Below, in pieces: positions 25,069-39,152 of a stretch of 64,000 bases of DNA. Origin of the DNA: Thermotoga neapolitana DSM 4359. GTDB lineage: Bacteria > Thermotogota > Thermotogae > Thermotogales > Thermotogaceae. Position 1 is the stretch's first letter. Each line of letters begins with the position of its first letter. A program made the translations under genes and the position numbers. The DNA is taken from positions 1,272,729 through 1,336,728 of the forward strand of contig NC_011978.1 in NCBI RefSeq assembly GCF_000018945.1, given 5' to 3'. The notes under the pieces are model-generated. The model saw only the letters and a list, made by a program, of their open reading frames with translations. It did no database searches and was not told the DNA's origin.

Positions 25069-25098
25069 TTGACAGAGGAGGTAATTTTTTGTTATCAT
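25069..25098 (+). promoter_or_regulatory. Promoter of the 25161-34879 glycoside operon
   Basis: TTGACA (25069-25074) and TATCAT (25093-25098) are 18 bases apart, giving a leader of about 55 bases. The leader is A/T-rich with no clear riboswitch fold. No LacI-like palindrome was recognised; the regulator encoded at the operon end (RpiR type) is the natural candidate. Confidence 0.6.
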
Positions 25099-25160
25099 CC
25101 ATATGTAGAAAATTTTCTTTTTAGTTATGATATACGAAAAACTTTTTCAAGGGGGTGTTC

Positions 25161-26426
25161 ATGGTGAGAAAGTGGTTGCTTTTCATGGTGATTCTGGCAG
25201 TTGTCGGTGTCGTTTTTGGTAAGGTGAACTTCGCTTCCACACAGATGACACCGGCGGCAGAGAGGGAGTTCATGCTGAACAAACTGGCAGAATTTTCGAA
25301 GTCATCGGGCATCGACGTGGAATTTCTCAACTTCGAATATCCACAGCTTTTCAGCAGACTCCAGGCAGAAATCAGGGCAGGAAGGACCACGTTGAATCTT
25401 GTAGCAGATCTTCAGGGAAATCTCTACATAATGGCATCTGAAGGACTTCTGAGTGATCTCAAAGACCTCAAATTCGAAGGGAAGACCTTCATTGAAACCC
25501 TCGAAAAGTTCGCTTACGTCAACGGCGAAAAGATCTTCGTTCCCTGGCTTCAGGCAACGTACGTTATGGCTATCAACAAGAAGGCGTTTGACTATCTGCC
25601 TCGCGGACTGTCCAGAGATGATGTGATCAAAGGAACGGAAAAATGGACCTATGAAGCTCTGCTTGAGTGGGCAAAGAACATCTACGAGAAAACGGGTCAA
25701 CCTCTTCTTGGCTTCCCGATCGGACCGAAAGGTCTCTGGCACAGATTCCTCCATGGTTACATCTATCCTTCCTTCACGGGAGCCCAGGCTCTGAAATTCG
25801 ACAGTGTGAGAGCCGTTGAGATGTGGAACTACCTGAAAGAACTCTTCAAATACGTTCACCCTGCAAGTTCCACCTGGGACGGTATGGCAGATCCTCTTTT
25901 GAGAGAAGAGGTGTGGATCGCCTGGGACCACACGGCAAGACTCAAGCCTGCCATCGTTGAAAAACCAGACGCTTTCGTTGTCGTTCCCGTTCCCAGGGGA
26001 CCGATGGGAAGAGGATACATCATCGTTCTTGTGGGACTTGCCATTCCAAAGGGAGCAGATTTCGAAGAACCGGCGAAGGTGATAGACTACCTCACCTCTC
26101 CGGAGATGCAGGTTGAGATCCTCAAGAACGTGGGATTCTTCCCCGTCGTCCAGGAAGCGGTTGGTGCCGTGCCGGAAGGCGCTCTCAAGGTCCTGGCTGA
26201 AGGTGTGATAAACCAGTCTGCCACGAAGGATTCTGTGGTGTCCTTCATACCGAGTCTGGGACCAAAGAGCGGAGAGTTCACCGAAACTTACAGAATGGCG
26301 TTCACGCGAATCGTCTTCCAGGGTGAAGATCCAGCGAAGGTAGTGAAAGAACTCGGTGAGCGAATCAGGCAGATGTTCAAAGAAACCGGAGCGGAACTTC
26401 CGGAACCGGACGCAAGTCTCTTCTGA
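25161..26426 (+). CDS. Sugar ABC transporter, extracellular solute-binding protein
   Basis: A family 1 extracellular binding protein of 421 residues. It has a signal peptide (basic VRKW, hydrophobic LLFMVILAVVGVVFG) with cleavage likely near residue 22, and no lipobox cysteine. The mature part shows the SBP_bac_1 pattern, ending with a helical region (FTETYRMAFTRIVFQGEDPAKVVKELGERI). ATG 25161 is preferred over GTG 25155 because of AAGGGGGTG. It heads an operon with two permeases, an ATPase, a GH38 enzyme and two glycosyltransferases, so a mannose- or glucose-containing glycoside is the expected ligand (inference). Confidence 0.9.
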   Translation: MVRKWLLFMVILAVVGVVFGKVNFASTQMTPAAEREFMLNKLAEFSKSSGIDVEFLNFEYPQLFSRLQAEIRAGRTTLNLVADLQGNLYIMASEGLLSDLKDLKFEGKTFIETLEKFAYVNGEKIFVPWLQATYVMAINKKAFDYLPRGLSRDDVIKGTEKWTYEALLEWAKNIYEKTGQPLLGFPIGPKGLWHRFLHGYIYPSFTGAQALKFDSVRAVEMWNYLKELFKYVHPASSTWDGMADPLLREEVWIAWDHTARLKPAIVEKPDAFVVVPVPRGPMGRGYIIVLVGLAIPKGADFEEPAKVIDYLTSPEMQVEILKNVGFFPVVQEAVGAVPEGALKVLAEGVINQSATKDSVVSFIPSLGPKSGEFTETYRMAFTRIVFQGEDPAKVVKELGERIRQMFKETGAELPEPDASLF

Positions 26427-26432
26427 GAACCC

Positions 26433-26456
26433 GGGGTGGGTCCCCCCACCCCTTTT
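26433..26456 (+). terminator. GC hairpin between binding-protein and permease genes
   Basis: GGGGTGGG (26433-26440) pairs with CCCACCCC (26445-26452) over a 4-base loop and is followed by TTTT. It sits between the binding protein and its permease, so it probably acts as a partial terminator or 3'-end stabiliser that keeps the binding protein in excess. Confidence 0.7.
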
Positions 26457-26469
26457 CTGGGGGTGTGTT

Positions 26470-27315
26470 ATGAGAGGAAAATGGATTCCCTTTCTTCTGA
26501 TACTCCCTGCAGTTCTTTACCTTGTTGTTTTGATGGGATATCCTCTCTTTGAAACGTTCAGACTCGCTTTTACAAGCAACGAGGGGTTTTTCGGAAACTT
26601 CAAGCGTCTCATGGAGAGTGGAGAGTTCTGGAACGCCATGAAGAACACACTACTTCTCACAGCGGTGATCGTTCCAGCCCAGCTCATTCTTGCCCTGGGA
26701 CTTGCTCTCTTTGTGAACTGGAAGTTCAGAGGTTACACGATGATCCTGTACTTCATAGCGATTCCACTTGCCCTGAGTGACGTCACAGCGGCCCTCATGA
26801 GTTACACGATATTTTCACCCAACGGATATTTGAACAAGATCCTCATGAGTCTGAACCTGATAGAAAGGCCTCTTTATTTCTTTGGGTACATGTTCAAGGC
26901 CAGAGAATTCTGGGTGATAGCCCTCACAGAAATCTGGAGAGCAACACCGCTTGTTTTCATCATCATCCTTGCTGGTCTTCAGTCGATAAACAGGGAATAC
27001 CTGGAAGCTGCCGATCTGTTCGGTTTTTCCAGATGGAAGAAGTTCACAAAGATCATACTTCCGCTTTTGAAGCCATCCATCATGTCGGCACTTCTTCTGA
27101 GGACCCTCTTTGCGTTTCAGATATTCGGTGTCGTGTGGCTTCTTGCGGGAAGGGACATCCCGGTTCTGGCTGGTGAAACCTACTACTGGTACACCTTCAT
27201 GAACGACCCGAAGATGGCCAGCGCTTATGCACTGGTGATCGCCCTCGTTACGATCATCGTCAGCTGGTTCTACATAACGTTCCTCAGGGCAAAACACCTG
27301 GAGGGGGCGCGATGA
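26470..27315 (+). CDS. Sugar ABC transporter permease, MalF type
   Basis: A 281-residue inner-membrane permease with six predicted helices. The first is PFLLILPAVLYLVVLMGYPLF. The cytoplasmic EAA loop reads YLEAADLFGFSRWKKFTKIILPLLKPSI. ATG 26470 is the start because the hydrophobic N-terminus begins there and GGGGGTG lies just upstream. It overlaps the next permease by four bases (ATGA). Confidence 0.93.
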   Translation: MRGKWIPFLLILPAVLYLVVLMGYPLFETFRLAFTSNEGFFGNFKRLMESGEFWNAMKNTLLLTAVIVPAQLILALGLALFVNWKFRGYTMILYFIAIPLALSDVTAALMSYTIFSPNGYLNKILMSLNLIERPLYFFGYMFKAREFWVIALTEIWRATPLVFIIILAGLQSINREYLEAADLFGFSRWKKFTKIILPLLKPSIMSALLLRTLFAFQIFGVVWLLAGRDIPVLAGETYYWYTFMNDPKMASAYALVIALVTIIVSWFYITFLRAKHLEGAR

Positions 27316-28109
27316 TGAGAAGATTTTTCATCGTCTTTCTATCTGTGATCGTATCTCTGTGGTTTTTGACTCCGGTGTTCTTCATCGTCCTTGCATCACT
27401 CACACCTTCGTCGGATTACTACGATCCGCACAGGATATTCCCGAGCAGTCTCACCCTTGATCATCTCTACAAACTCTTCGTCACACTGGGAGGTGGTAAG
27501 GCAACGCTGACCAGTATCCAGGTGGCCCTCGTTTCGATAGGAATTTCGTTTCTTCTTGGGCTTCCCGCTGGATACGCCCTCACAAGGTATGTCTTTCCGG
27601 GAAAGAATGCCATCAGGCTCTCCATGCTCATGACAAGATCGATTCCCCTCATCGTGGTCGCAGTTCCTCTTGTGGTTCTTTACATGAGACTGAATCTTGC
27701 AGACACCACACTCGGTGTGGCACTGGCACACGCTTCGATGATACTGCCCTTTGTTGTTCTCATCACCTCCAGTGTGTTTTCCGGGATCTCTGTTGAATAC
27801 GAGGAGGCGGGGATGGTCTTCGGATTGAGCAGGTTCCAGGCTTTTTTGAGAATCACACTTCCCCTTGCACTTCCTGGGCTCGCCGCTTCTGCCATATTTG
27901 CCTTTATCATGTCTTGGAACGAAGTCTTTGCCTCTTCGATTCTGACACTGACGAACAGAACGCTTCCCGCACACATCCTCAACACCGCCATGGCATCACC
28001 CGATTACTTCAAGTTCGCTGCGGGAACGATCATGGCGATCCCTGCAATGGTGTTCATATTCTTCATTCGAAAGTACCTCGTGAGCATGTGGGGTATCACC
28101 TTAAAGTGA
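27312..28109 (+). CDS. Sugar ABC transporter permease, MalG type
   Basis: The second permease of the same importer, 265 residues and six helices. It has the MalG-like start with a hydrophobic helix ending in FFIVLASLTPSSDYY and the loop HRIFPSSLTLDHLYKLF. The EAA loop is EYEEAGMVFGLSRFQAFLRITLPLALPG. It has the usual MalG length, in contrast to the giant MalG-type protein at 59650. Followed 13 bases later by the ATPase gene. Confidence 0.93.
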   Translation: MMRRFFIVFLSVIVSLWFLTPVFFIVLASLTPSSDYYDPHRIFPSSLTLDHLYKLFVTLGGGKATLTSIQVALVSIGISFLLGLPAGYALTRYVFPGKNAIRLSMLMTRSIPLIVVAVPLVVLYMRLNLADTTLGVALAHASMILPFVVLITSSVFSGISVEYEEAGMVFGLSRFQAFLRITLPLALPGLAASAIFAFIMSWNEVFASSILTLTNRTLPAHILNTAMASPDYFKFAAGTIMAIPAMVFIFFIRKYLVSMWGITLK

Positions 28110-28122
28110 GAGGTGATAGAAA

Positions 28123-29190
28123 TTGGCTCAGGTGAGAATAGAAGGAGCGAAAAAGTACTTCGGGAACGTGAAGGCACTCGATGGTATCGACCTCACCGTG
28201 AACGAAGGAGAATTCCTCGTTCTGCTGGGGCCTTCAGGATGTGGAAAAACCACCCTCTTGAGATGCATAGCGGGCCTTGAGCAGGTAACAGAGGGAAGAA
28301 TCTTCTTCAACGACCGTGAGGTGACGAACCTTGCACCGAAAGACAGGAACATCTCAATGGTTTTCCAGAGTTACGCAGTCTGGCCCCACATGAAGGTGAG
28401 AGACAACATAGGGTATCCCCTCAAACTCAAGAAGGTTCCAAAGGAAGAGATCGAAAGGAGGGTGAACTGGGCGGCAGATCTTCTTCACATATCAGAACTT
28501 CTCGACAGATACCCCGCACAGCTTTCGGGAGGTCAGAGACAGAGGGTTGCCGTTGCCCGCGCGATCGTTCATGAACCAGAAGTGCTCCTGATGGATGAAC
28601 CCCTTTCGAATCTCGATGCTCTCCTTCGTGTGAAAATGAGAAGCGAATTGAAAAAACTCCAGGAAAGAATCGGTGTTACAACAATCTACGTGACCCACGA
28701 TCAAACGGAAGCGATGACAATGGGAGATAGAATCGCCGTGATGAATCAGGGAAAACTCCAGCAGGTGGGAACACCCTCTGAGATATACCATCATCCTGTG
28801 AACATCTTCGTTGCAGGATTTGTGGGATCACCGCAGATGAACTTTCTGGAGATGGAAGTGAAATCTCGGGGAACCAGTATCTTCCTTGAGAAAGATGCCA
28901 TATCGATTCCCCTGAAGACCGATCCAAAGATTTCAAGGGTTGTCCTCGGTATTCGTCCCGAAAACGTCTACCTGGAAGAGAGACCAAACACCGTCAGACT
29001 GGAAGGAGAGGTCTATTTTGCCGAAAAACTCATGTCGGACACGATACTCCACCTGAACGTTGGGACTGAGAAAATCGTTGCGAAGATCCCCGGTGATGTT
29101 GATTTCAAAAGTGGAGAAAAAGTTGAATTCTTCATAGATCCTGAGAAGATACACCTTTTCCATCCGGAAACAGGAGAGAGGCTTTCATGA
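28123..29190 (+). CDS. Sugar ABC transporter ATP-binding protein, MsmK/UgpC type
   Basis: A 355-residue cytoplasmic ATPase. Walker A GPSGCGKT (about 38-45), signature LSGGQRQR, Walker B VLLMDEPLSNLD and H-loop IYVTHD are present. The C-terminal 120 residues form the TOBE/regulatory domain (VLGIRPENV). This class can serve several sugar importers at once, which matters because the maltose-type importer at 56683-62124 has no ATPase of its own. TTG 28123 follows GAGAGGTGATAGAAA. It overlaps the GH38 gene by four bases. Confidence 0.93.
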   Translation: MAQVRIEGAKKYFGNVKALDGIDLTVNEGEFLVLLGPSGCGKTTLLRCIAGLEQVTEGRIFFNDREVTNLAPKDRNISMVFQSYAVWPHMKVRDNIGYPLKLKKVPKEEIERRVNWAADLLHISELLDRYPAQLSGGQRQRVAVARAIVHEPEVLLMDEPLSNLDALLRVKMRSELKKLQERIGVTTIYVTHDQTEAMTMGDRIAVMNQGKLQQVGTPSEIYHHPVNIFVAGFVGSPQMNFLEMEVKSRGTSIFLEKDAISIPLKTDPKISRVVLGIRPENVYLEERPNTVRLEGEVYFAEKLMSDTILHLNVGTEKIVAKIPGDVDFKSGEKVEFFIDPEKIHLFHPETGERLS

Positions 29191-31682
29191 AGGAAAAGGT
29201 GATCGTCCACAATCACTGGGACAGGGAGTGGTTCACCACATCCGAGGTGACCTCCCGCTGGCTGGGAGAGTTTTTTTTCAGAGTGAAGGACCTTTCTGAG
29301 AGAAATCCAGACTTTGTCTACGTGATGGACGGCCAGACGGCCGTGATCGAAGACCTTCTCACGGAAAACCCGCAGGTGGAGGAAGACCTCAAAAAACTGG
29401 TTGAAGAAGGGAAGTTGCTGATAGGACCCTATTACACGCAGATAGACTGGAGGATACCAAAAGAGCCGTCCATACTGAAAAATCTGGAGATAGGGTTGAA
29501 GGATTCTGAAAGATTCGGAAAGTGCATGAAGGTGGGATGGCTTCTTGACAACTTCGGTCACATATCTCAGGGCCCACAGTTGCACAGACTGTTCGGTATA
29601 GAGAAGGTCTTTCTCTGGCGGGGTGTTTCTTTCGAGAACGACGAGATCTCCCAGGAGTTTCTCTGGAAAGGAAGCGATGGCACAGCGGTTCAGGCCATAT
29701 TTCTTGTGGGAGGCTACAGAAACCTGTACAACCTGAAAGAGACGAAAGAGATGGCAGAGAAAAGACTGAAGCACGAAAAGAAAAAACTGGAAAGGTTCTC
29801 AAGATCTGGTGAGGTGCTACTTCTCGATGGATACGATATAGACCTCTCTCCAGAAGATCCCCAGGAGTATCTGAGGATTAAGATCGTCTCGCCAGAAGAT
29901 TTCCCTGAAAGGTTTCCCGGGGACGTACCTGTTCTTTCTGGAGAACTCCTTTCTGGAAGATACGCCTGCACCTTTCCGGGAACACTTTCCACCAGGGTGT
30001 ATCTGAAACTGGAAAGCGACCTCATCGAAGATCTTCTGAAACTGGAGGATATCCTTTCTGCCCTGAACGGTGAAAAGCCTCAGGAAATCCTGTGGAGGGA
30101 GTACCTGAAGACCCTTGCGCACGACAACATCTGTGGAGTGTGTGTGGATCCTGTCCATGAAAAGATGGGGAGAACATACAGGAAGATGTACTTTCTTTTA
30201 AAAAGATCCGTGGAAGAAAAGTTGAAAGAACTTTCCGGGAAAGCAAGACTGAAAAGTGGTCTTTATGTTTTTTCTCTTTCTCCGTTTCCTTACAATCACT
30301 GGTACTGCGACGGTGAGAGAACAGTTCGGCTAAGAACAGACGGTGCGGGATTTTTCAGAGCCGAAACCGCCAGTCAGAAGAGAGAGTCGAACAAGGCCCT
30401 GTCGTGGAAGAACGACTACTACGAGGCACACTTTGAAAAAGACGGCTCTCTTCTCCTGAACGGAAAAAGAGCAGGTGTTTTGAATCTGTTCGAAGAAAAG
30501 GGTGATACCTACTCCACCTTCGTTGAAAAAACGGATTTCTCCGTGATTCTGAGAAGACTTGAGATCGTCTCCAGAACGGAACATTCCATGGTTGTTGAGA
30601 TGGAAAGATCTGTTCAGTCACACCTGTGCCATGTTGAAACGAAAGAAAGAATCGTCTTCGATGAAACACCACTTGTGAAATGGAATCTGGTTCTGGACAC
30701 AAAAGGGAAGAACTACAAACTTTCGATGAGTTACGAGACAGGAACAGGAGAGATCTTTGCAAAGATGCCCTTCGATGTGGTGAAAAGAAAGGAAAAAGAC
30801 GATTGTCTACTACCAGAATCACTCCCTGAGAGTTTGAAGGGGATTCTTCTTGCAGCAAGAGAGACGGGTGTGGTGAGGGAATTTCCATTCCAGGGTTTTG
30901 TCTCCATATACGATGGCAAAATGTCGAAAACCTTCCTTGCAAAAGGTCTGAGAGAGTACTGGATGGAGAACAAAAGGGTGCACGTAACACTTGTGAGGTC
31001 GATCGAGTGGATAGCAAAGGATGTAAAGGGCAGAGTGGGGGACGCAGGTCCCATGATGTACGTTCCCGGAGCAAAGTGTGAGGGAAGCTTTTCGATGAGG
31101 CTTTCCTTTATGGAACTTGAGAGCCATCCAAGAAGCGAGGAGTTCTTCAGGTGGTACACCCTCTTTGACTGTCCTCCACTGTTTCTAGAGATCGAATCCG
31201 ATGGAGAAGAAAGCGAACGTGTCCTTTTCAAATCAAAACTCCCGTGGGTTGGTGTGAAGGACTCTTCCCTCTGGGTCTTCAATCCATATCTGGAAGAAGT
31301 GGAAGGTTTAAAACCCCTTCAGATAGGAACAAGACGGATCGAACCGCTCTCTGGTGCGGTGCGACCTTCTGAACTGTCCATCTTGAACTTTCCGGAGTTT
31401 CCCGTTCTGCGTCTTGAGAGTTCACCAGAAGACGAAGCGGTGGACCTTTTGAAAAAGACCATTTCTGAACTCGACGCGGAAGCCTCCAGGCTCTCTGGAA
31501 AAGATGACGTGAAGTCAAAACACAGGTACTTTTCTCTTCTCAGAACGAAGAAAGAAATGGAACTTTCACTTTTTCACCTTCAGAGCGAGGAAAAACTGGC
31601 AAGGGAGTTGAACGAACTTCGAATGAAGAGAAGAACCTACGATTACCTGCTGGAACTCTTTGAAAGCGAGGAGAAAGCATGA
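29187..31682 (+). CDS. GH38 alpha-mannosidase-like glycoside hydrolase
   Basis: An 831-residue enzyme without signal peptide, so cytoplasmic. The zinc-binding motif HNHWDREW (H8/H10 and D12) and the nucleophile segment GWLLDNFGH (D121) mark family 38. The HxHWDREW form is that of bacterial alpha-mannosidases and mannosylglycerate hydrolases such as MngB. A long beta-rich C-terminal half follows, ending in a helical tail (SELDAEASRLSGKDD onward). It probably splits the imported alpha-mannoside. It sits between the importer and two glycosyltransferases; the exact substrate is not known. Confidence 0.88.
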   Translation: MKEKVIVHNHWDREWFTTSEVTSRWLGEFFFRVKDLSERNPDFVYVMDGQTAVIEDLLTENPQVEEDLKKLVEEGKLLIGPYYTQIDWRIPKEPSILKNLEIGLKDSERFGKCMKVGWLLDNFGHISQGPQLHRLFGIEKVFLWRGVSFENDEISQEFLWKGSDGTAVQAIFLVGGYRNLYNLKETKEMAEKRLKHEKKKLERFSRSGEVLLLDGYDIDLSPEDPQEYLRIKIVSPEDFPERFPGDVPVLSGELLSGRYACTFPGTLSTRVYLKLESDLIEDLLKLEDILSALNGEKPQEILWREYLKTLAHDNICGVCVDPVHEKMGRTYRKMYFLLKRSVEEKLKELSGKARLKSGLYVFSLSPFPYNHWYCDGERTVRLRTDGAGFFRAETASQKRESNKALSWKNDYYEAHFEKDGSLLLNGKRAGVLNLFEEKGDTYSTFVEKTDFSVILRRLEIVSRTEHSMVVEMERSVQSHLCHVETKERIVFDETPLVKWNLVLDTKGKNYKLSMSYETGTGEIFAKMPFDVVKRKEKDDCLLPESLPESLKGILLAARETGVVREFPFQGFVSIYDGKMSKTFLAKGLREYWMENKRVHVTLVRSIEWIAKDVKGRVGDAGPMMYVPGAKCEGSFSMRLSFMELESHPRSEEFFRWYTLFDCPPLFLEIESDGEESERVLFKSKLPWVGVKDSSLWVFNPYLEEVEGLKPLQIGTRRIEPLSGAVRPSELSILNFPEFPVLRLESSPEDEAVDLLKKTISELDAEASRLSGKDDVKSKHRYFSLLRTKKEMELSLFHLQSEEKLARELNELRMKRRTYDYLLELFESEEKA

Positions 31683-32956
31683 AGATAGCCCTCCTTCACT
31701 ACCGCGGTGGTCTCATGGACGGTGTTTCTCTCGAAATGGAGAAGTGGAAGAAGGTCCTGACGAGGATGGGACATGAGGTTCACATCGTGGCAGGAAACAG
31801 AAAAGAAGGAGTCGACGTGGTCGTGGAGGAGATCGGGTTTGAAAATCCAGACTTCGCTATGATGAACAGGAACTTCTTCGGAGGTGTGACGGATTTCTCC
31901 AATGAAGAGGATTTTCTGAGTTTTATGAAAAAAAAAGAGGAAGAACTCTTCCATACTTTAAGTGAGGTTTTGGAAGATTACGATCTTGTTGTTCCGAACA
32001 ACATCTGGTCCCTGGGACTCTTTCCACCACTCGGCCTTGCCCTTTCGAAACTGAAAAAGAAATTCATCGCACACCACCACGATTTCTGGTGGGAGCGAAA
32101 GCACCTGATTCCAAAAAGCGAAAGGTTGAGAGAGATACTGGAAAGACACTTCCCACCGGATCTTCCAAATGTGAAGCACGTGGTCATAAACTCGATCGCA
32201 AAGAAAGAACTTCAGAAAAGAAAGGGCATAGATCCAGTTGTGGTGCCGAACGTTATGGATTTTGAAAGGCCACTTACCTCCGAAGATATGTATCACAGGA
32301 TGAGAGAAGAACTCGGTATAGATCCGGGAACGATCGTTGCCCTTCAGGCAACAAGGATCGACAAAAGAAAAGCGATCGAACTTTCAATAGACGTTGTGGC
32401 TTTATTGAAAAGGACCCTGAAGAGAAAAACTCCTCTATACAACGGCAGTGTGTTCAGTGGCGAGATTGTCCTCGTGTTTTCCGGTCTCTGTGAAGACGTA
32501 TCTTACCTTGAAGAGTTGAAAGAGTACGCTTCCCTGAAAAGTGTTCCACTTTTGATCTTCAGCGAGAGGGTGAAAGAAGACACCTCATTTTTCTGGAAAC
32601 TCTACAACGTTGCCGATTTTGTCACGTATCCCACCATCCTTGAGGGGTGGGGAAACCAACTCCTTGAAGCGATAGCGGCGAAAAAACCTGTTGTTCTTTT
32701 CGAGTACGAGGTGTTCAGGTCCGACATAAAACCGGTGGGGTTGAGGTACATCAGTCTGGGAGAGCGATTTTTCAGAAGAGAAAATCTTGTGAAGGTTGAA
32801 GAGAGCGTTCTGCAGAAAGCGGTGGAGGAACTGTCAAAACTTTTGTGTGATCCTTCTCTTTACAGAGAAACGGTGGAGCACAACTTCGAAGTGGGGAAGA
32901 AGCACTTCAGTCTGGAAAGACTGAAAGAGATACTGAGCAGGGAGGTATTGGTATGA
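31679..32956 (+). CDS. GT4-type glycosyltransferase
   Basis: A 425-residue GT-B fold transferase. The N-terminus is KIALLHYRGGLMDGVSLEM, the middle has FIAHHHDFWWERKH, and the donor-binding C-terminal half contains VVPNVMDFE, ATRIDKRKAIELSIDVVALL and the E(x)7E-type segment TILEGWGNQLLEAIAA. This type uses GDP- or UDP-sugars with retention. Together with the next gene it resembles the pairing of a mannosyltransferase with a glycerate glycosyltransferase used for mannosylglucosylglycerate in Petrotoga (recalled, not searched). Overlaps its neighbours by four bases on each side. Confidence 0.82.
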   Translation: MKIALLHYRGGLMDGVSLEMEKWKKVLTRMGHEVHIVAGNRKEGVDVVVEEIGFENPDFAMMNRNFFGGVTDFSNEEDFLSFMKKKEEELFHTLSEVLEDYDLVVPNNIWSLGLFPPLGLALSKLKKKFIAHHHDFWWERKHLIPKSERLREILERHFPPDLPNVKHVVINSIAKKELQKRKGIDPVVVPNVMDFERPLTSEDMYHRMREELGIDPGTIVALQATRIDKRKAIELSIDVVALLKRTLKRKTPLYNGSVFSGEIVLVFSGLCEDVSYLEELKEYASLKSVPLLIFSERVKEDTSFFWKLYNVADFVTYPTILEGWGNQLLEAIAAKKPVVLFEYEVFRSDIKPVGLRYISLGERFFRRENLVKVEESVLQKAVEELSKLLCDPSLYRETVEHNFEVGKKHFSLERLKEILSREVLV

Positions 32957-34095
32957 AGGTTGTCGTTGGGATACCCAGTTTCAACAACGCAGAGACGATT
33001 TCCCACGTTGCAAAAGTGGCGGCGAAGGGTATCATGGAGTTCTTCGATGGAGACGGCATGATCGTGAACTCGGACGGTGGCTCGTCCGATGGTACAAGAG
33101 AAAGATTCATGGAGACGGACACTTTCGGTGTTCCAAAGGAGAGTTTTGTCTACGAGGGAATTCCGGGAAAAGGAAGTGCCATGAAGGCCATCATGGAGTT
33201 TTCTCTTGAGCAGGGAGCGCAGACGGTGGTGTTTCTTGACTCCGACCTGAGAAGCGTGAAACCGTGGTGGGTGGAAAGACTTGCAGGACCAATACTGAGA
33301 GGAGAGGCAGACTACGTCACACCGTTTTATCTGAGACACAGATTCGATGGCACGATCACAAACAACGTCTGTTTTCCCATGACGTCTGCTCTTTACGGAA
33401 AGAAGGTGAGACAGCCCATCGGGGGAGACTTCGGTGTTGGAAAAAAACTCCTTGAGATTTACTTAGAAAAACCGGAAGAGACGTGGAAAACGGACGTTGC
33501 AAGATTCGGTATCGATATCTGGATGACCACAACCGCCATAAACGAATCTGGAAGGATCCTTCAGGCGGCCCTCGGTACCAAGATCCACGATGTCAAGGAT
33601 CCCGGAAAACACCTCAAGGGAATGTTCCTTCAGGTGGTGGGAACACTCTTTGAGTTGATGGTCACCTATCAGAACAGATGGATGAGTGTGTGGAACATTG
33701 AAGATGTGCCCATTTACGGTGAAACACCAGAAGAAGAAATTCCACCGATGACCATAGATGTGGACAATCTAAAAAAACTCGCAAAAGAAACACTGGTTGT
33801 ACCAGAATACGTGAACGAGAGTGCCGTAAGAGAAGTGAAAGAAGATGGCACACTCAGCCTCAATTCCTGGGTTGATCTTCTCTACAGAAGTGCCGTTCAA
33901 TACAGAAAGACGAGGGACAAAACGGTGGTGGAGAACCTTCTGCCGTTTTACTTTGCAAGAACCGCCAGGTTCGCAGAAGAGGTAAAATCTCTATCGGACG
34001 AAGAGGCCGAAAGGTACGTTTACGAGCAACTCGGGGTATTTCTGGAAAGGAAACGCCTGTTGAAGGAGGAGTGGGAGGTTGAAGATAAAGGATAG
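32953..34095 (+). CDS. GT81-like glycosyltransferase (glucosylglycerate / GPGS family look-alike)
   Basis: A 380-residue GT-A transferase. The order of motifs, VGIPSFNNAETI, SDGGSSDGT, GIPGKGSAM, the metal-binding VVFLDSDLR (DSD 96-98), VTPFYLRHRFDG and RQPIGGDFGVG, matches glucosyl-3-phosphoglycerate synthase and glucosylglycerate synthase (GT81) rather than ordinary GT2 enzymes. Those attach a sugar to glycerate or 3-phosphoglycerate in compatible-solute or polysaccharide synthesis. The C-terminal about 130 residues are helical and extra. The function here is inferred; no phosphatase gene lies next to it. It overlaps the GT4 gene by 4 and the regulator gene by 17 bases. Confidence 0.78.
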   Translation: MKVVVGIPSFNNAETISHVAKVAAKGIMEFFDGDGMIVNSDGGSSDGTRERFMETDTFGVPKESFVYEGIPGKGSAMKAIMEFSLEQGAQTVVFLDSDLRSVKPWWVERLAGPILRGEADYVTPFYLRHRFDGTITNNVCFPMTSALYGKKVRQPIGGDFGVGKKLLEIYLEKPEETWKTDVARFGIDIWMTTTAINESGRILQAALGTKIHDVKDPGKHLKGMFLQVVGTLFELMVTYQNRWMSVWNIEDVPIYGETPEEEIPPMTIDVDNLKKLAKETLVVPEYVNESAVREVKEDGTLSLNSWVDLLYRSAVQYRKTRDKTVVENLLPFYFARTARFAEEVKSLSDEEAERYVYEQLGVFLERKRLLKEEWEVEDKG

Positions 34096-34879
34096 GATAC
34101 TGAACATATACACACAGTTCAGCCCCGCCGAGCGGAGGGTGGCTGATTACATCCTGGAAAAACCGGATGATGTCATACACTACTCGATCACGGAGTTTGC
34201 AAAGATCGTGGGTGTGAGTGAAACCACGATTCACAGGGTGATCAAAAAACTCGATTTCGACGGCTATCAGGCCTTCAAGATCACCCTGGCAAGAGAGTTG
34301 AGCGGTATAGAAGAGGAGATAGAAAGACACGATTTCATAGATGAGGAAATAGAGATACTGAAACGTCTGAAGAACACACTGAACATGAAGGATGTAGAGC
34401 AGGCGGTGGAGTGGATCCTCTCAGCCCGGCGGGTGCTCTTTTTTGGAGTCGGACTTTCTGGGGTGGTATCAGAGTATGCGAGTTTGAAGTTTTCGCTCCT
34501 TGGTTTCCACACGTTCTTTTCCAACGACCCACACGTTCAGGTGATAGAGGCGGTGAACCTCACAGAGGAGGATCTGGTGATTTCGATCAGCCACACCGGA
34601 AACATAAGGGACACGGTGAAATCCACCCAGGTGGCAAAGGACATGGGAGCGAAAACGATTGCCATCACAACGAACAAAGACTCTGAACTGGCAAAGGTGG
34701 CCCACCTCGTTCTTCAGAGCCCTCCTGTGAAGTACGATACCTACGAGTTTTTGAGGGAAAACATCGGTGAAATCGCCGTTGTGGACGTTCTCTTCAAAGA
34801 GACCTTCCAGAGGATCTATCAGGAGAGAAAAAAGCACTTTGAAAACCTGGAGGATGTGTTCAAACCGAAGAGATTTTGA
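34079..34879 (+). CDS. RpiR-family transcriptional regulator (HTH plus SIS domain)
   Basis: A 266-residue regulator. The N-terminal helix-turn-helix (about 1-75) reads FSPAERRVADYILEKP and FAKIVGVSETTIHRVIKKL. The SIS domain (about 105-240) has FFGVGLSGVVSEYASLKF and SISHTGNIRDTVK, which bind phosphosugars. It therefore senses a sugar phosphate or related glycolytic acid and probably controls its own operon. TTG 34079 is supported by GGAGGAG upstream; the frame begins inside the glycosyltransferase gene. It is the last gene before a new promoter. Confidence 0.9.
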   Translation: MKIKDRILNIYTQFSPAERRVADYILEKPDDVIHYSITEFAKIVGVSETTIHRVIKKLDFDGYQAFKITLARELSGIEEEIERHDFIDEEIEILKRLKNTLNMKDVEQAVEWILSARRVLFFGVGLSGVVSEYASLKFSLLGFHTFFSNDPHVQVIEAVNLTEEDLVISISHTGNIRDTVKSTQVAKDMGAKTIAITTNKDSELAKVAHLVLQSPPVKYDTYEFLRENIGEIAVVDVLFKETFQRIYQERKKHFENLEDVFKPKRF

Positions 34880-35035: not shown

Positions 35036-37036
35036 ATGAGAAAACTTGTGTTCTCATTTTTGATTGTGACATTGCCCATCGTCCTCTTTGCAAACAGTGA
35101 TTTCGTGAAAGTGGAAAACGGCAGGTTCATACTGAACGGAGAAGAGTTCAGATTCGTTGGAAGCAACAACTACTACATGCACTACAAGAGCAATCGAATG
35201 ATAGACAGTGTCCTTGAAAGTGCAAAAGCCATGGGGGTGAAGGTGCTCAGAATCTGGGGATTCCTCGATGGTGAGAGTTACTGCCGTGACAAGAACACCT
35301 ACATGCACCCCGCACCGGGAGTATTTGGATTGCCAGAGGGTACGAACGCTCAGGACGGTTTTGAAAGACTCGACTACACGGTAGCGAAAGCAAAAGAACT
35401 GGGCATAAAGCTCATAATCGTTCTTGTGAACAACTGGGACGACTTCGGTGGAATGAATCAATACGTGAGATGGTTTGGGGGCATCCATCACGATGACTTC
35501 TACAGGAACGAGAAGATCAAAGAAGAATACAAAAAGTACGTGTCTTTCCTCATAAACAGGGTGAACACCTACACGGGTGTTCCTTACAGGGAAGAGCCCA
35601 CCATCATGGCATGGGAACTGGCGAACGAGCCCAGGTGTGAAACGGACAAGTCTGGTAACACACTCGTTGAATGGGTAGAGGAGATGAGTGCTTACATAAA
35701 GAGTCTGGATCCAAACCACCTGGTTGCCGTGGGAGACGAGGGATTCTTCAACAACTACGAAGGCTTCAGACCTTACGGTGGAGAGGCTGAGTGGGCCTAC
35801 AACGGATGGTCCGGTGTTGACTGGAAGAGACTTCTGGAGATAGAGACGGTGGATTTTGGTACGTTCCATCTCTACCCCTCCCACTGGGGTGTGAGCCCTG
35901 AAAACTACGCACAGTGGGGGGCAAAGTGGATAGAAGATCACATAAAGATCGCAAAAGAGGTTGGAAAACCCGTCGTTCTGGAAGAGTACGGTATTCCCAA
36001 AAGTGCCCCGGTCAACAGGGTTGCCATTTACAAATTGTGGAACGATCTGGTCTACAACCTCGGTGGAAACGGTGCCATGTTCTGGATGCTCGCAGGAATC
36101 GGTGAAGGATGGGACAGAGACGAAAAGGGTTACTACCCCGATTACGACGGCTTCAGAATAGTGAACGATGAAAGTGAAGAGGCAAAGTTGATCAGAGAGT
36201 ACGCGAAACTGTTCAGCACGGGTGAGGATACGAGGGAAGATACCTGCATGTTCATCACACCAAAGGATGGTCAGGAGATCAAAAAGACTGTGAAGGTGAG
36301 AGTGGGTGTCTTCGACTACAGCAACACGTTCAAAGGAATTTCCGTCGGGGTTGAAAATCTGCTCTTTGAAGATGAGATAAAACATCTCGGATATGGAGTT
36401 TACGGATTCGAATTTGACACAACGCGGATTTCAGACGGAGAACACGAGATGTTCCTTGAGGCACATTTCAGGGGAGAAACGGTGAAAGACACAATCAGGG
36501 TGAAAGTTGTGAACAGAGCGCAGTATGTACTCGCAGAAGAAGTGGATTTTTCCAGACCCGAAGAAGTCAAGAACTGGTGGAACAGCGGAACATGGCAGGC
36601 TGAGTTCAAAACACCCGATATAGAGTGGAACGGTGAGGTGGGGAACGGTGCTCTCCAGATGAACGTGGTGCTTCCCGGAAAGGGTGACTGGGAAGAGGTG
36701 AGGGTGGTCAGGAAATTCGATCAACTCCCCGTGTGTGAGATCCTCGAGTACGATATCTACATACCAGACGTTGAAGGGCTTACAGGAAGGCTCAGACCGT
36801 ACGCGGTGCTGAATCCCGGCTGGGTGAAGATAGGGCTCGACATGAACAACACCTCGATTGACAGCGGAGAACTTGTCAGTTTCGATGGCAAAAAGTACAG
36901 AAAGTTCCATGTGAGGATCGAGTTCGACAAGACACCTGGAGTGAACGAGCTCCACATAGGTGTAGTTGGAGACCACCTGGAGTATGATGGGCCGATTTTC
37001 ATCGATAATGTGAGGCTCTATAAAAAATCTTCTTGA
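35036..37036 (+). CDS. Secreted GH5 endo-beta-1,4-mannanase with C-terminal CBM27-like domain
   Basis: A 666-residue extracellular enzyme that cuts beta-mannan and glucomannan. Signal peptide: KLVFSFLIVTLPIVLFANS. The catalytic TIM barrel (about 25-400) has RIWGF, the acid/base E198 in WELANEPRCE, the HLYPSHWG loop and the nucleophile E317 in PVVLEEYG. A linking beta-domain (about 405-490) is followed by a CBM27-like mannan-binding module (about 500-666, with ending FIDNVRLYK). This corresponds to Man5 of T. maritima (TM1227), whose CBM27 has been characterised. ATG 35036 follows GGAGGGG. Confidence 0.95.
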   Translation: MRKLVFSFLIVTLPIVLFANSDFVKVENGRFILNGEEFRFVGSNNYYMHYKSNRMIDSVLESAKAMGVKVLRIWGFLDGESYCRDKNTYMHPAPGVFGLPEGTNAQDGFERLDYTVAKAKELGIKLIIVLVNNWDDFGGMNQYVRWFGGIHHDDFYRNEKIKEEYKKYVSFLINRVNTYTGVPYREEPTIMAWELANEPRCETDKSGNTLVEWVEEMSAYIKSLDPNHLVAVGDEGFFNNYEGFRPYGGEAEWAYNGWSGVDWKRLLEIETVDFGTFHLYPSHWGVSPENYAQWGAKWIEDHIKIAKEVGKPVVLEEYGIPKSAPVNRVAIYKLWNDLVYNLGGNGAMFWMLAGIGEGWDRDEKGYYPDYDGFRIVNDESEEAKLIREYAKLFSTGEDTREDTCMFITPKDGQEIKKTVKVRVGVFDYSNTFKGISVGVENLLFEDEIKHLGYGVYGFEFDTTRISDGEHEMFLEAHFRGETVKDTIRVKVVNRAQYVLAEEVDFSRPEEVKNWWNSGTWQAEFKTPDIEWNGEVGNGALQMNVVLPGKGDWEEVRVVRKFDQLPVCEILEYDIYIPDVEGLTGRLRPYAVLNPGWVKIGLDMNNTSIDSGELVSFDGKKYRKFHVRIEFDKTPGVNELHIGVVGDHLEYDGPIFIDNVRLYKKSS

Positions 37037-37045
37037 GGAGGCTGA

Positions 37046-38032
37046 ATGATGTTGAGGGTTTTCAGTGAAAAGATCCCAAACATTCCCTGGGAGGAAAGGC
37101 CAGAGGGTCACACAGGACCTCTGTGGAGGTACAGTAAAAACCCCATAATCGGAAGAAATCCCGTTCCGAAGGGTGCGAGGGTGTTCAACTCTGCCGTTGT
37201 GCCGTACAACGGAGAATTCGTGGGAGTTTTCAGGATCGATCACAAAAACACCAGACCTTTTCTTCACTTCGGGAGGAGCAAAGACGGAATTCACTGGGAA
37301 ATAGAACCAGAGGAGATCCAGTGGGTGGATCTGAACGGTAATCCTTTCCAGCCCAGTTATGCTTATGATCCAAGAGTGGTGAAGATAGAGGACACATACT
37401 ATATAACCTTCTGCACAGATGATCACGGTCCCACGATTGGAGTGGGAATGACAAAGGATTTCAAAACCTTCGTGCGTCTTCCGAATGCCTACGTTCCATT
37501 CAACAGGAACGGAGTGCTCTTTCCAAGGAAGATAAACGGAAAGTATGTGATGTTAAACAGGCCGAGTGACAACGGTCATACTCCGTTTGGAGACATCTTC
37601 CTCAGTGAAAGCCCGGACATGATTCACTGGGGAAACCACAGATTCGTGATGGGAACAAGCAGTTACAACTGGTGGGAAAATCTCAAGATAGGAGCGGGCC
37701 CATATCCAATAGAAACGAGCGAGGGATGGCTCCTTATCTACCATGGTGTGACTCTCACCTGCAATGGATACGTTTACAGTTTTGGAGCCGCTCTTCTCGA
37801 TCTGAACGATCCCAGTAAGGTTCTTTACAGGTCGAAGTACTATCTTTTAACACCGGAGGAGGATTACGAAACGATTGGATTTGTTCCAAACGTGGTTTTC
37901 CCCTGCGCTGCGCTCTGCGATTCTGAAACAGGAAGGGTAGCGATATACTACGGTGCGGCAGATACCCACGTTGCTGTCGCGTTTGGATACATAGACGAGA
38001 TCGTAGAATTTGTGAAAAGAAACTCCATGTGA
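37046..38032 (+). CDS. GH130 beta-1,4-mannoside phosphorylase-like enzyme
   Basis: A 328-residue five-bladed beta-propeller without signal peptide. Family 130 features: RVFNSAVVPYNGEFVGVFR, a YDPRVVKIEDTYYITF segment with the catalytic aspartate, NRPSDNG, the phosphate-contacting basic and aromatic residues around NWWENLKIGAGPYPI, and YHGVT. These enzymes release alpha-mannose-1-phosphate from beta-1,4-manno-oligosaccharides or mannosyl-glucose, saving ATP. The equivalent in T. maritima is TM1225 (recalled). It begins ten bases after the mannanase stop; in MSB8 I recall a second binding-protein gene between them, absent here. Starts at ATG 37046 or 37049 behind GAGGAGG. Confidence 0.9.
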   Translation: MMLRVFSEKIPNIPWEERPEGHTGPLWRYSKNPIIGRNPVPKGARVFNSAVVPYNGEFVGVFRIDHKNTRPFLHFGRSKDGIHWEIEPEEIQWVDLNGNPFQPSYAYDPRVVKIEDTYYITFCTDDHGPTIGVGMTKDFKTFVRLPNAYVPFNRNGVLFPRKINGKYVMLNRPSDNGHTPFGDIFLSESPDMIHWGNHRFVMGTSSYNWWENLKIGAGPYPIETSEGWLLIYHGVTLTCNGYVYSFGAALLDLNDPSKVLYRSKYYLLTPEEDYETIGFVPNVVFPCAALCDSETGRVAIYYGAADTHVAVAFGYIDEIVEFVKRNSM

Positions 38033-38045
38033 GGAGGATGAAGAT

Positions 38046-39152
38046 TTGCTGAGGTCCATAAGAAAAGACAACACGTCGAAAATCCTGAAACGAATAATGA
38101 AATCCCCCGTATCTCGTGTTGAGATCGCAGAAGAACTCGGTCTCACGAAGACCACCGTGGGAGAGATCGTAAGAATTCTTCTGGAAAAGGGCATTGTCAC
38201 TGAGGAAAAGGACTCTCCCAGAGGAGTGGGAAGACCAACTATTTCTTTGAAGATAACACCGGATTGCGCTCATGTCCTGGGTCTCGAGGTAACAAGAGAC
38301 GAGATAGCGATCTGCCTCATGAACGCCAGCATGAGCATTCTCATATACGAAACGTATCCTCTACCTTTCCAGCGTGACAGGGAAGGCACTCTGAAGATCG
38401 TCTACAGAGGGATAGATCGTGCAAAGAACATGCTGGAGAAACTGGGCAGGAAACTTTCGGCTCTGACTGTGGCAGCACCGGGCCCAGTCGATGTTGAAAA
38501 GGGTATCATTATAAATCCAAGGAATTTTCCTCTGTCTCAGATTCCCCTTGCCGATCTTCTGAAAGATAAATACGGTGCTGAGGTCTGGGTGGAAAACGAT
38601 GCTGACATGGGGGCAGTTGGAGAAAAGTGGTACACAGGGCGGGACGATTCCTTCGTCTGGATTTTGACGGGAAAAGGAATAGGATCCGGGATCATCATCA
38701 ACGGGGAACTCTATCGGGGCGAGAATGGCTATGCGGGAGAGATCGGATACACCAGAGTCTTCGACGGAGAAAGATACGTTTTCCTGGAAGATGTGTGTGG
38801 AGAAGACACCGTCCTGAAGCATGTTCGTTCCATGGGCTTTGAGTCTCTCGCAGAGGCCATAGAATCTGAAGACGATCGTGTAAGAGAGTATCTGGACAGC
38901 ATTGCCGAATTTTTCAGTACAGGCCTTTTGAACCTGATACACCTCTTTGGCATCTCAAAGGTCGTCATAGGAGGATTCTTCAAGGAGTTTGGAAACGATT
39001 TTCTGAAAAACCTGAAGATGAAGGTGGAAAGGTACCTTCTCTACAAACACGAAGTGGACATCAGTTTCTCTGCGGTTCAGGAGCCGGTGATCGCTTTTGG
39101 AGCGGCAGTTCACGCACTGGAAAATTATCTGGAGAGAGTAGCGACGAGTTAA
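38046..39152 (+). CDS. ROK-family repressor (ManR-like)
   Basis: A 368-residue regulator with an N-terminal helix-turn-helix (SRVEIAEELGLTKTTVGEIVRIL) and a ROK sugar-kinase-like domain containing WVENDADMGAVGEKW and LTGKGIGSGIIINGELYRGENGYAGEIGY. The ROK zinc motif (CxCGxxGCxE) is missing: only LEDVCGEDTV remains. By position between GH130 and the manno-oligosaccharide importer it should control the mannan genes, as I recall for ManR (TM1224). TTG 38046 is seven bases after GAGGAGG. Confidence 0.9.
   Translation: MLRSIRKDNTSKILKRIMKSPVSRVEIAEELGLTKTTVGEIVRILLEKGIVTEEKDSPRGVGRPTISLKITPDCAHVLGLEVTRDEIAICLMNASMSILIYETYPLPFQRDREGTLKIVYRGIDRAKNMLEKLGRKLSALTVAAPGPVDVEKGIIINPRNFPLSQIPLADLLKDKYGAEVWVENDADMGAVGEKWYTGRDDSFVWILTGKGIGSGIIINGELYRGENGYAGEIGYTRVFDGERYVFLEDVCGEDTVLKHVRSMGFESLAEAIESEDDRVREYLDSIAEFFSTGLLNLIHLFGISKVVIGGFFKEFGNDFLKNLKMKVERYLLYKHEVDISFSAVQEPVIAFGAAVHALENYLERVATS

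Follow-up and report, generated by a model that had tools for sequence, protein, structure and literature searches.

A UgtR-linked operon of Thermotoga neapolitana predicted to import and process glucosylglycerate and mannosylglucosylglycerate

Thermotoga neapolitana DSM 4359 carries, on the + strand of the 64,000-bp stretch of contig NC_011978.1 analysed here (hereafter, the window), eight co-directional, mostly overlapping genes at 25155-34879. They encode a sugar importer (UgtEFGK), a GH38 glycoside hydrolase, a GT4 glycosyltransferase, a second glycosyltransferase that we call the 32953 enzyme after its start position, and the regulator UgtR. We describe this operon as a putative system for glycosyl-glycerate solutes, namely glucosylglycerate (GG) and mannosylglucosylglycerate (MGG). 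An earlier note on this DNA had described eight genes with overlapping ends under one promoter and this description holds, as all of them lie on the + strand with one near-consensus promoter at 25069-25098. Gene content, families, operator and conserved linkage are read directly from the sequence. Genomes are labelled G### and loci L###, the window's genome (1,884,562 bp) being G000, and genus names for Thermotogota loci outside the named species (e.g. Pseudothermotoga-like) are guesses. The features are the following:

25069..25098, + strand: extended promoter-like site TTGACA-18-TATCAT, its -10 preceded by TG; it agrees with the consensus at 11 of 12 positions, which does not prove function
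25106..25119, unstranded: predicted UgtR operator TAGAAAATTTTCTT, a palindrome conserved upstream, with core GAAAATTTTC at 25108-25117
25155..26426, + strand: UgtE, extracellular solute-binding protein (Pfam SBP_bac_8 and SBP_bac_1; model matches carbohydrate-binding proteins of this type)
26433..26452, + strand: GC-rich hairpin followed by TTTT in the ugtE-ugtF gap, a possible attenuator or mRNA stabiliser
26470..27315, + strand: UgtF, permease (Pfam BPD_transp_1)
27312..28109, + strand: UgtG, permease (Pfam BPD_transp_1)
28123..29190, + strand: UgtK, MalK/UgpC-type ATPase (NF008653, 448.7 bits, cut-off 432)
29187..31682, + strand: GH38 enzyme, candidate MGG alpha-mannosidase (PF01074, 102 bits; below the NF007331 cut-off)
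31679..32956, + strand: GT4 enzyme, probable MggS (NF041101, 679.7 bits, cut-off 640)
32953..34095, + strand: GT-A glycerate-type glycosyltransferase, probable Ggs (fold, glycerate-site residues, Petrotoga mobilis relative)
34079..34879, + strand: UgtR, RpiR-family regulator with SIS domain (PF01418 and PF01380; tree)

Gene ends overlap by 4 bp at UgtF/UgtG, UgtK/GH38, GH38/GT4 and GT4/32953 and by 17 bp at 32953/UgtR, with gaps of 13 bp before UgtK and of about 43 bp between UgtE and UgtF. UgtE may start at GTG 25155 or ATG 25161, and the UgtF frame opens at 26356 with ATG 26470 as its most likely start. All four loci retrieved from other Thermotoga genomes (L044-L047) have the identical gene order, and therefore the arrangement is not due to chance. 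The strong hairpin with its T-tail (26433-26452) would suit an operon that has to produce more binding protein than permease. An RNA regulator was also considered and rejected, a tRNA being the only RNA found in the window.

The two glycosyltransferases (TRANSFERASES), that is, the GT4 enzyme at 31679..32956 and the 32953 enzyme, were examined against curated equivalogs. The GT4 enzyme exceeds the MggS cut-off of NF041101, residues 1-422 aligning with positions 1-430 of the 431 in the profile. Judging from this match it is probably an MggS, which makes MGG from GDP-mannose and GG. Fernandes et al. 2010 are said to have expressed the T. maritima homologue and to have obtained MGG from these two substrates. 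The candidate identity TreT was rejected, since at E 0.001 no solved structure, TreT included, matches the GT4 enzyme in sequence. The best matches to surface-polysaccharide enzymes that the earlier note had named as evidence against its proposal did not occur in this profile check; no equivalog for such synthesis was over its cut-off for either transferase.

The families assigned by the earlier note were confirmed for the importer, GH38, GT4 and RpiR proteins; its GT81-like label for the 32953 enzyme called for correction. Against NF010496, the equivalog of GpgS (the phosphorylated route), this enzyme scored 55 bits where 262 are needed, and a profile search found no GpgS over cut-off in the window's genome. 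Its AlphaFold model (predicted local distance difference test score, pLDDT, 93.8) is closest, over the whole length, to mannosylglycerate synthase (MgS, GT78; template modelling score 0.71-0.76), with GpgS (GT81) second. A profile search retrieved both families with GpgS first, and the best Pfam match was MGS_GT, below cut-off. The glycerate carboxylate is held by Val186/Thr187 of GpgS and by Ile138/Thr139 of MgS (PMC2581804). In our sequence alignment the invariant I135-T136 of the 32953 enzyme falls on these glycerate-site residues, and the active-site DxD (D96, D98), K73, D188 and H212, as befits the MgS/GpgS fold, are invariant among its relatives. Besides a single true GpgS (385.5 bits), P. 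mobilis (G049, which we take to be strain SJ95) encodes one further enzyme of this type, 52% identical to the 32953 enzyme; because one GpgS and one Ggs are reportedly present in this species, the second should, by elimination, be the Ggs. The 32953 enzyme is thus probably a Ggs by sequence likeness, with unphosphorylated D-glycerate as acceptor and NDP-glucose (NDP, nucleoside diphosphate) as donor.

The resemblance to MgS leads to a different solute, in which the 32953 enzyme would use GDP-mannose and the operon would handle mannosylglycerate and a glycosylated form of it. The top structural matches and the sub-cut-off MGS_GT match agree with this, as do the score of the GH38 enzyme against the mannosylglycerate hydrolase model and the close relatives of the 32953 enzyme in Thermococcus, given that mannosylglycerate serves Thermococcales as a salt osmolyte (PMC4932500). 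However, the phosphorylase that replaces the 32953 enzyme in other genomes (see below) bears glucosylglycerate signatures, and the relatives of this enzyme accompany glucosyl-3-phosphoglycerate synthases. Moreover, the Ggs of P. mobilis reportedly uses ADP-glucose. We find mannosylglycerate improbable and hold with good confidence that the solute is GG or MGG. In this sense, the mannose/glucose-glycerate class suggested in the earlier note is upheld by the MggS match, by the kinship of the 32953 enzyme to Ggs and by its relatives in glucosylglycerate osmolyte clusters.

The GH38 enzyme scores 102 bits against a gathering cut-off of 25 for the N-terminal domain PF01074 of its family. HxHWDREW (H8, H10, D12), D121 and H312, presumably the metal-site and nucleophile residues, are invariant among 11 relatives. 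The idea that it could be a mannosylglycerate hydrolase was not borne out: the MngB-type equivalog NF007331 gave 231.6 bits, over the N-terminal part only, against a cut-off of 1138. We infer that its substrate is MGG. A second, canonical GH38 is encoded elsewhere (G000:C1:790626-791402, 324 bits, in a 1015-codon frame), and therefore the operon enzyme is not the sole alpha-mannosidase-type enzyme of the cell.

Regarding regulation, the core palindrome is located approximately at the expected transcription start, and WRGAAAATTTTCYW occurs once in the window's genome. Of 29 UgtR-linked operons, 12 have an exact core no more than 150 bp upstream of their first gene, where first-order Markov shuffles predict 0.08; this excess is not a probability, since related genomes are not independent. 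In a further six the core, placed at -60 to -69, has one mismatch. The core is AT-rich, and control counts indicate that the pattern is not rare in AT-rich genomes. The operator is common to operons with UgtE-type and SBP2-type importers and to operons with Ggs and with phosphorylase, and therefore it joins these importer and enzyme variants into one regulon. Across the operons compared here, the regulator gene belongs to the operon and a palindrome is conserved ahead of it, as a UgtR regulon would have. UgtR presumably acts as a repressor.

The counterpart in T. maritima is TM1235-TM1228. There, UgtR/TM1228 and UgtEFGK are listed under 'hypothetical sugar utilization', and the UgtR regulon is present in 9/11 Thermotogales genomes (PMC3750489). 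The window operon agrees with that regulon in regulator and importer names and in Thermotogales-wide conservation; it differs in that no substrate is given there, whereas here glycosyl-glycerates are proposed and a second importer type and a phosphorylase variant are linked to it.

Among 103 Thermotogota genomes, MggS-family matches occur in 80, 22 of them over cut-off, and a Ggs-like gene in 65, mostly in importer operons. We distinguished five arrangements:

A, Thermotoga: UgtEFGK-GH38-MggS-Ggs-UgtR
B, Pseudothermotoga-like genomes among others: UgtEFGK-GH38-Ggs-UgtR-MggS
C: a different importer with MggS, no Ggs alongside
D: MggS-SBP2-F-G-UgtR-GH13_18, MggS being absent from some
E: SBP2-F-G-Ggs-UgtR, MggS being optional; P. 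mobilis L076 is of this type

Hence, in this phylum MggS or Ggs is coupled to three importers of only distant kinship. In four genomes (G078-G081; loci fetched for G078, G079 and G081) MggS and an importer are present, and we found there no Ggs, no GpgS of either type over cut-off and no phosphorylase. Beside MggS in P. mobilis, the neighbouring genes were rejected as an importer, their matches being a chemotaxis-receptor-like protein, a FAD enzyme and a binding-protein-like gene. At the class C loci L032-L036, L038-L040, L055, L057 and L059 a divergent gene beside the importer-MggS operon encodes a small, 2H-phosphoesterase-like protein that has two HxT-type motifs and only a sub-cut-off Pfam match.

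The GH13_18 protein of arrangement D scores as a sucrose-phosphorylase relative. Glucosylglycerate phosphorylases are recognised by a (T/S)ETN motif at strand 5 and a Glu in loop A (PMC7178133), and both were found in 10/10 fetched copies, all from related loci. The predicted glucosylglycerate phosphorylase gene occurs in 11/103 genomes and Ggs in 0/11 of these, so that the two never co-occur (hypergeometric 6e-6 assuming independent genomes, which these are not). Nine of the ten fetched phosphorylase genes lie inside an SBP2-F-G-UgtR operon, G005 (L083) being the exception. On the SBP2 protein tree the Ggs/phosphorylase label needs 3 changes, at least 2 of them forced by well supported branches. 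Two unrelated enzymes, both predicted from sequence to act on GG, therefore swap behind the same importer and regulator.

Looking beyond the phylum, we took the 80 top-ranked relatives of the Ggs-like enzyme; 68 of them are numbered L108-L175 and are, by their titles, almost all from other groups. Near the Ggs relative we found a mechanosensitive-channel-like protein at 30/68 loci, a GpgS-like gene at 22/68, a GpgP-type phosphatase at 16/68, a glycerate kinase at 12/68 (phosphatase-fused in Gallionellaceae-type loci), an importer at 10/68 and MggS at 5/68; none of these was present at 21/68. These neighbourhoods therefore tie the Ggs-like enzyme independently to GG metabolism. Beside GpgS plus GpgP and a glycerate kinase, a GG-splitting role would make more sense than a second GG synthase. 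In L134, L152, L158 (5734-11155) and L161, a mannosyl-3-phosphoglycerate-phosphatase-type domain is fused to the glycerate kinase, and this fusion adjoins a Ggs-like gene, a mechanosensitive-channel-like protein and a GpgS-like gene. In Thermococcus (L112, L117) a UgtEFGK importer is divergent from the Ggs-like gene, and TrmB is present. The combination of a UgtEFGK-like importer, two Gfo/Idh/MocA dehydrogenases and a Ggs-like gene in L112:581-9140, L117:559-9140 and the Chloroflexi locus L120:3-9179 hints at a keto-glycoside route.

Taken together, we propose, with a probability of roughly 0.6, that the operon serves the UgtR-controlled import and processing of glycosyl-glycerate solutes, namely GG and MGG. 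UgtEFGK would import the solute, presumably GG or MGG being its ligand, the GH38 enzyme would remove mannose from MGG hydrolytically, MggS would interconvert MGG and GG with GDP-mannose/GDP, and the Ggs-like transferase would interconvert GG and D-glycerate with NDP-glucose/NDP, all repressed by UgtR from the single promoter palindrome. Recovery would yield glycerate and NDP-sugars or mannose, with a glycerate kinase homologue encoded elsewhere in the window's genome. Neither a GG-hydrolase-type nor a glucosylglycerate phosphorylase gene was found in this genome, and therefore, among known enzyme types, only the Ggs-like enzyme could split the GG freed by GH38.

As for direction, the earlier note had left the choice between making and recycling the solute and salvaging it from the environment. 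Making and recycling exceeds the evidence and environmental salvage fits best, because each transferase repeatedly has its own importer and the phosphorylase replaces Ggs. Uptake and recovery are also favoured by the GH38 gene in the operon and by G078-G081, where no known GG-making enzyme was found. Even so, a net flux of uptake and recovery instead of net synthesis is to us an even bet. In a biosynthetic scheme, Ggs would form GG from ADP-glucose and D-glycerate and MggS would turn it into MGG as a stress solute, while the importer regains leaked or environmental solute and GH38 clears MGG once the stress ends. The GT4 enzyme does exceed the MggS equivalog cut-off, the relatives of Ggs outside the phylum stand with GpgS, GpgP and mechanosensitive channels as in an osmolyte context, and P. 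mobilis, where Ggs-like and MggS genes are found, accumulates MGG (PMC3694870). However, Ggs swaps with the phosphorylase, importer and MggS occur in some genomes that lack a GG source, and a hydrolase and synthases on one transcript would mean futile cycling. In addition, T. maritima and T. neapolitana are known for other solutes. We therefore consider net biosynthesis rather unlikely.

Several observations weigh against import and recovery. The fold search with the UgtE model (pLDDT 80) gives no single ligand, as maltose-, acarbose-, cello-oligosaccharide- and sulfoquinovosyl-glycerol-binding proteins match about equally and no assignment could be made. MggS lacks an adjacent importer of these kinds in L043, L048-L051, L062, L071 and L077, and Ggs lacks one in L051 and L088. 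GH38 would be redundant with a reversed MggS, and the published MggS and Ggs assays reportedly ran in the synthetic direction. Finally, our literature search of the open library found no expression or growth data for GG or MGG.

A more tentative proposal, to which we give somewhat less than an even chance, is that Ggs and MggS are mainly catabolic in vivo, converting imported MGG/GG and GDP/ADP (or another NDP) into GDP-mannose, NDP-glucose and glycerate. By analogy with sucrose synthase and TreT, the reversed enzymes may conserve the energy of the glycosidic bond. TreT of Thermococcus litoralis, a reversible NDP-sugar GT4 of a hyperthermophile, is a precedent for disaccharide recovery as NDP-sugar (PMC1769515); it differs in substrate and from the window GT4 in sequence, as described above. 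Ggs may then be the nucleotide-dependent counterpart of glucosylglycerate phosphorylase, and the 'second synthesis pathway' of P. mobilis may be its uptake pathway. TreT is likewise encoded with a sugar importer.

The importer and the GH38 enzyme could, alternatively, serve plant or microbial alpha-mannosides, with the transferases as unrelated passengers, since mannan-utilisation genes adjoin the operon: GH5 with CBM27, GH130 and a ROK regulator lie directly downstream (35036-39152), and UgtE is a generic carbohydrate-type binding protein. Yet the importer-transferase-UgtR linkage is kept far beyond Thermotoga without mannan genes, and the ugt operator is single in the genome and absent at the mannan genes, which makes this reading very improbable. 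In G091 and G093 a 562-codon gene, absent at that place in the window, lies between GH5 and GH130.

Compared with the MGG pathways of P. mobilis, reported by Fernandes et al. 2010 (as cited in PMC3694870), the import operon proposed here shares the non-phosphorylating Ggs-like and MggS pair. P. mobilis differs in having also GpgS with the phosphorylated route, in its Ggs lying in the SBP2 importer operon L076, apart from MggS, and in that no GH38 adjoins there. The glucosylglycerate phosphorylase systems (GH13_18, EC 2.4.1.352; PMC7178133) act on the same compound and occupy the same operon place in Marinitoga-like genomes; the enzyme itself is unrelated to Ggs and uses phosphate, not nucleotide. 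To our knowledge, what is new is that the ugt regulon receives an assignment, that Ggs and the phosphorylase replace each other and that the transferases may be used in reverse; the parts themselves are known, and publication outside the searched open library is possible. All functional statements are predictions from sequence. They propose a substrate (GG/MGG) for a regulon and importer that, in a model hyperthermophile, were still entered as unknown in 2013, and predict a GG/MGG importer and a GH38 enzyme that takes mannose off MGG. They also offer a possible reason for 'synthase' genes in organisms not known to accumulate GG or MGG; if the transferases do run in reverse, taking a Ggs or MggS annotation to prove osmolyte synthesis would mislead in many genomes.

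Concerning the history of the operon, the window MggS clusters with MggS of the importer-only class C loci (quick tree, Shimodaira-Hasegawa-like approximate likelihood ratio test 96), whereas the window UgtR clusters with GH38-bearing operons of Pseudothermotoga-like genomes. The Thermotoga operon has the look of a mosaic, its MggS gene apparently having been replaced. In the Thermotogaceae G097, G098 and G099 (L066, L084) about 25-30 profile positions (~54-86) are missing from MggS, whose frame is otherwise open. G041 has two broken MggS copies (C9:45306-46607 and C16:38661-39952), one with 7 in-frame stops and the other with a stop and a frame change.

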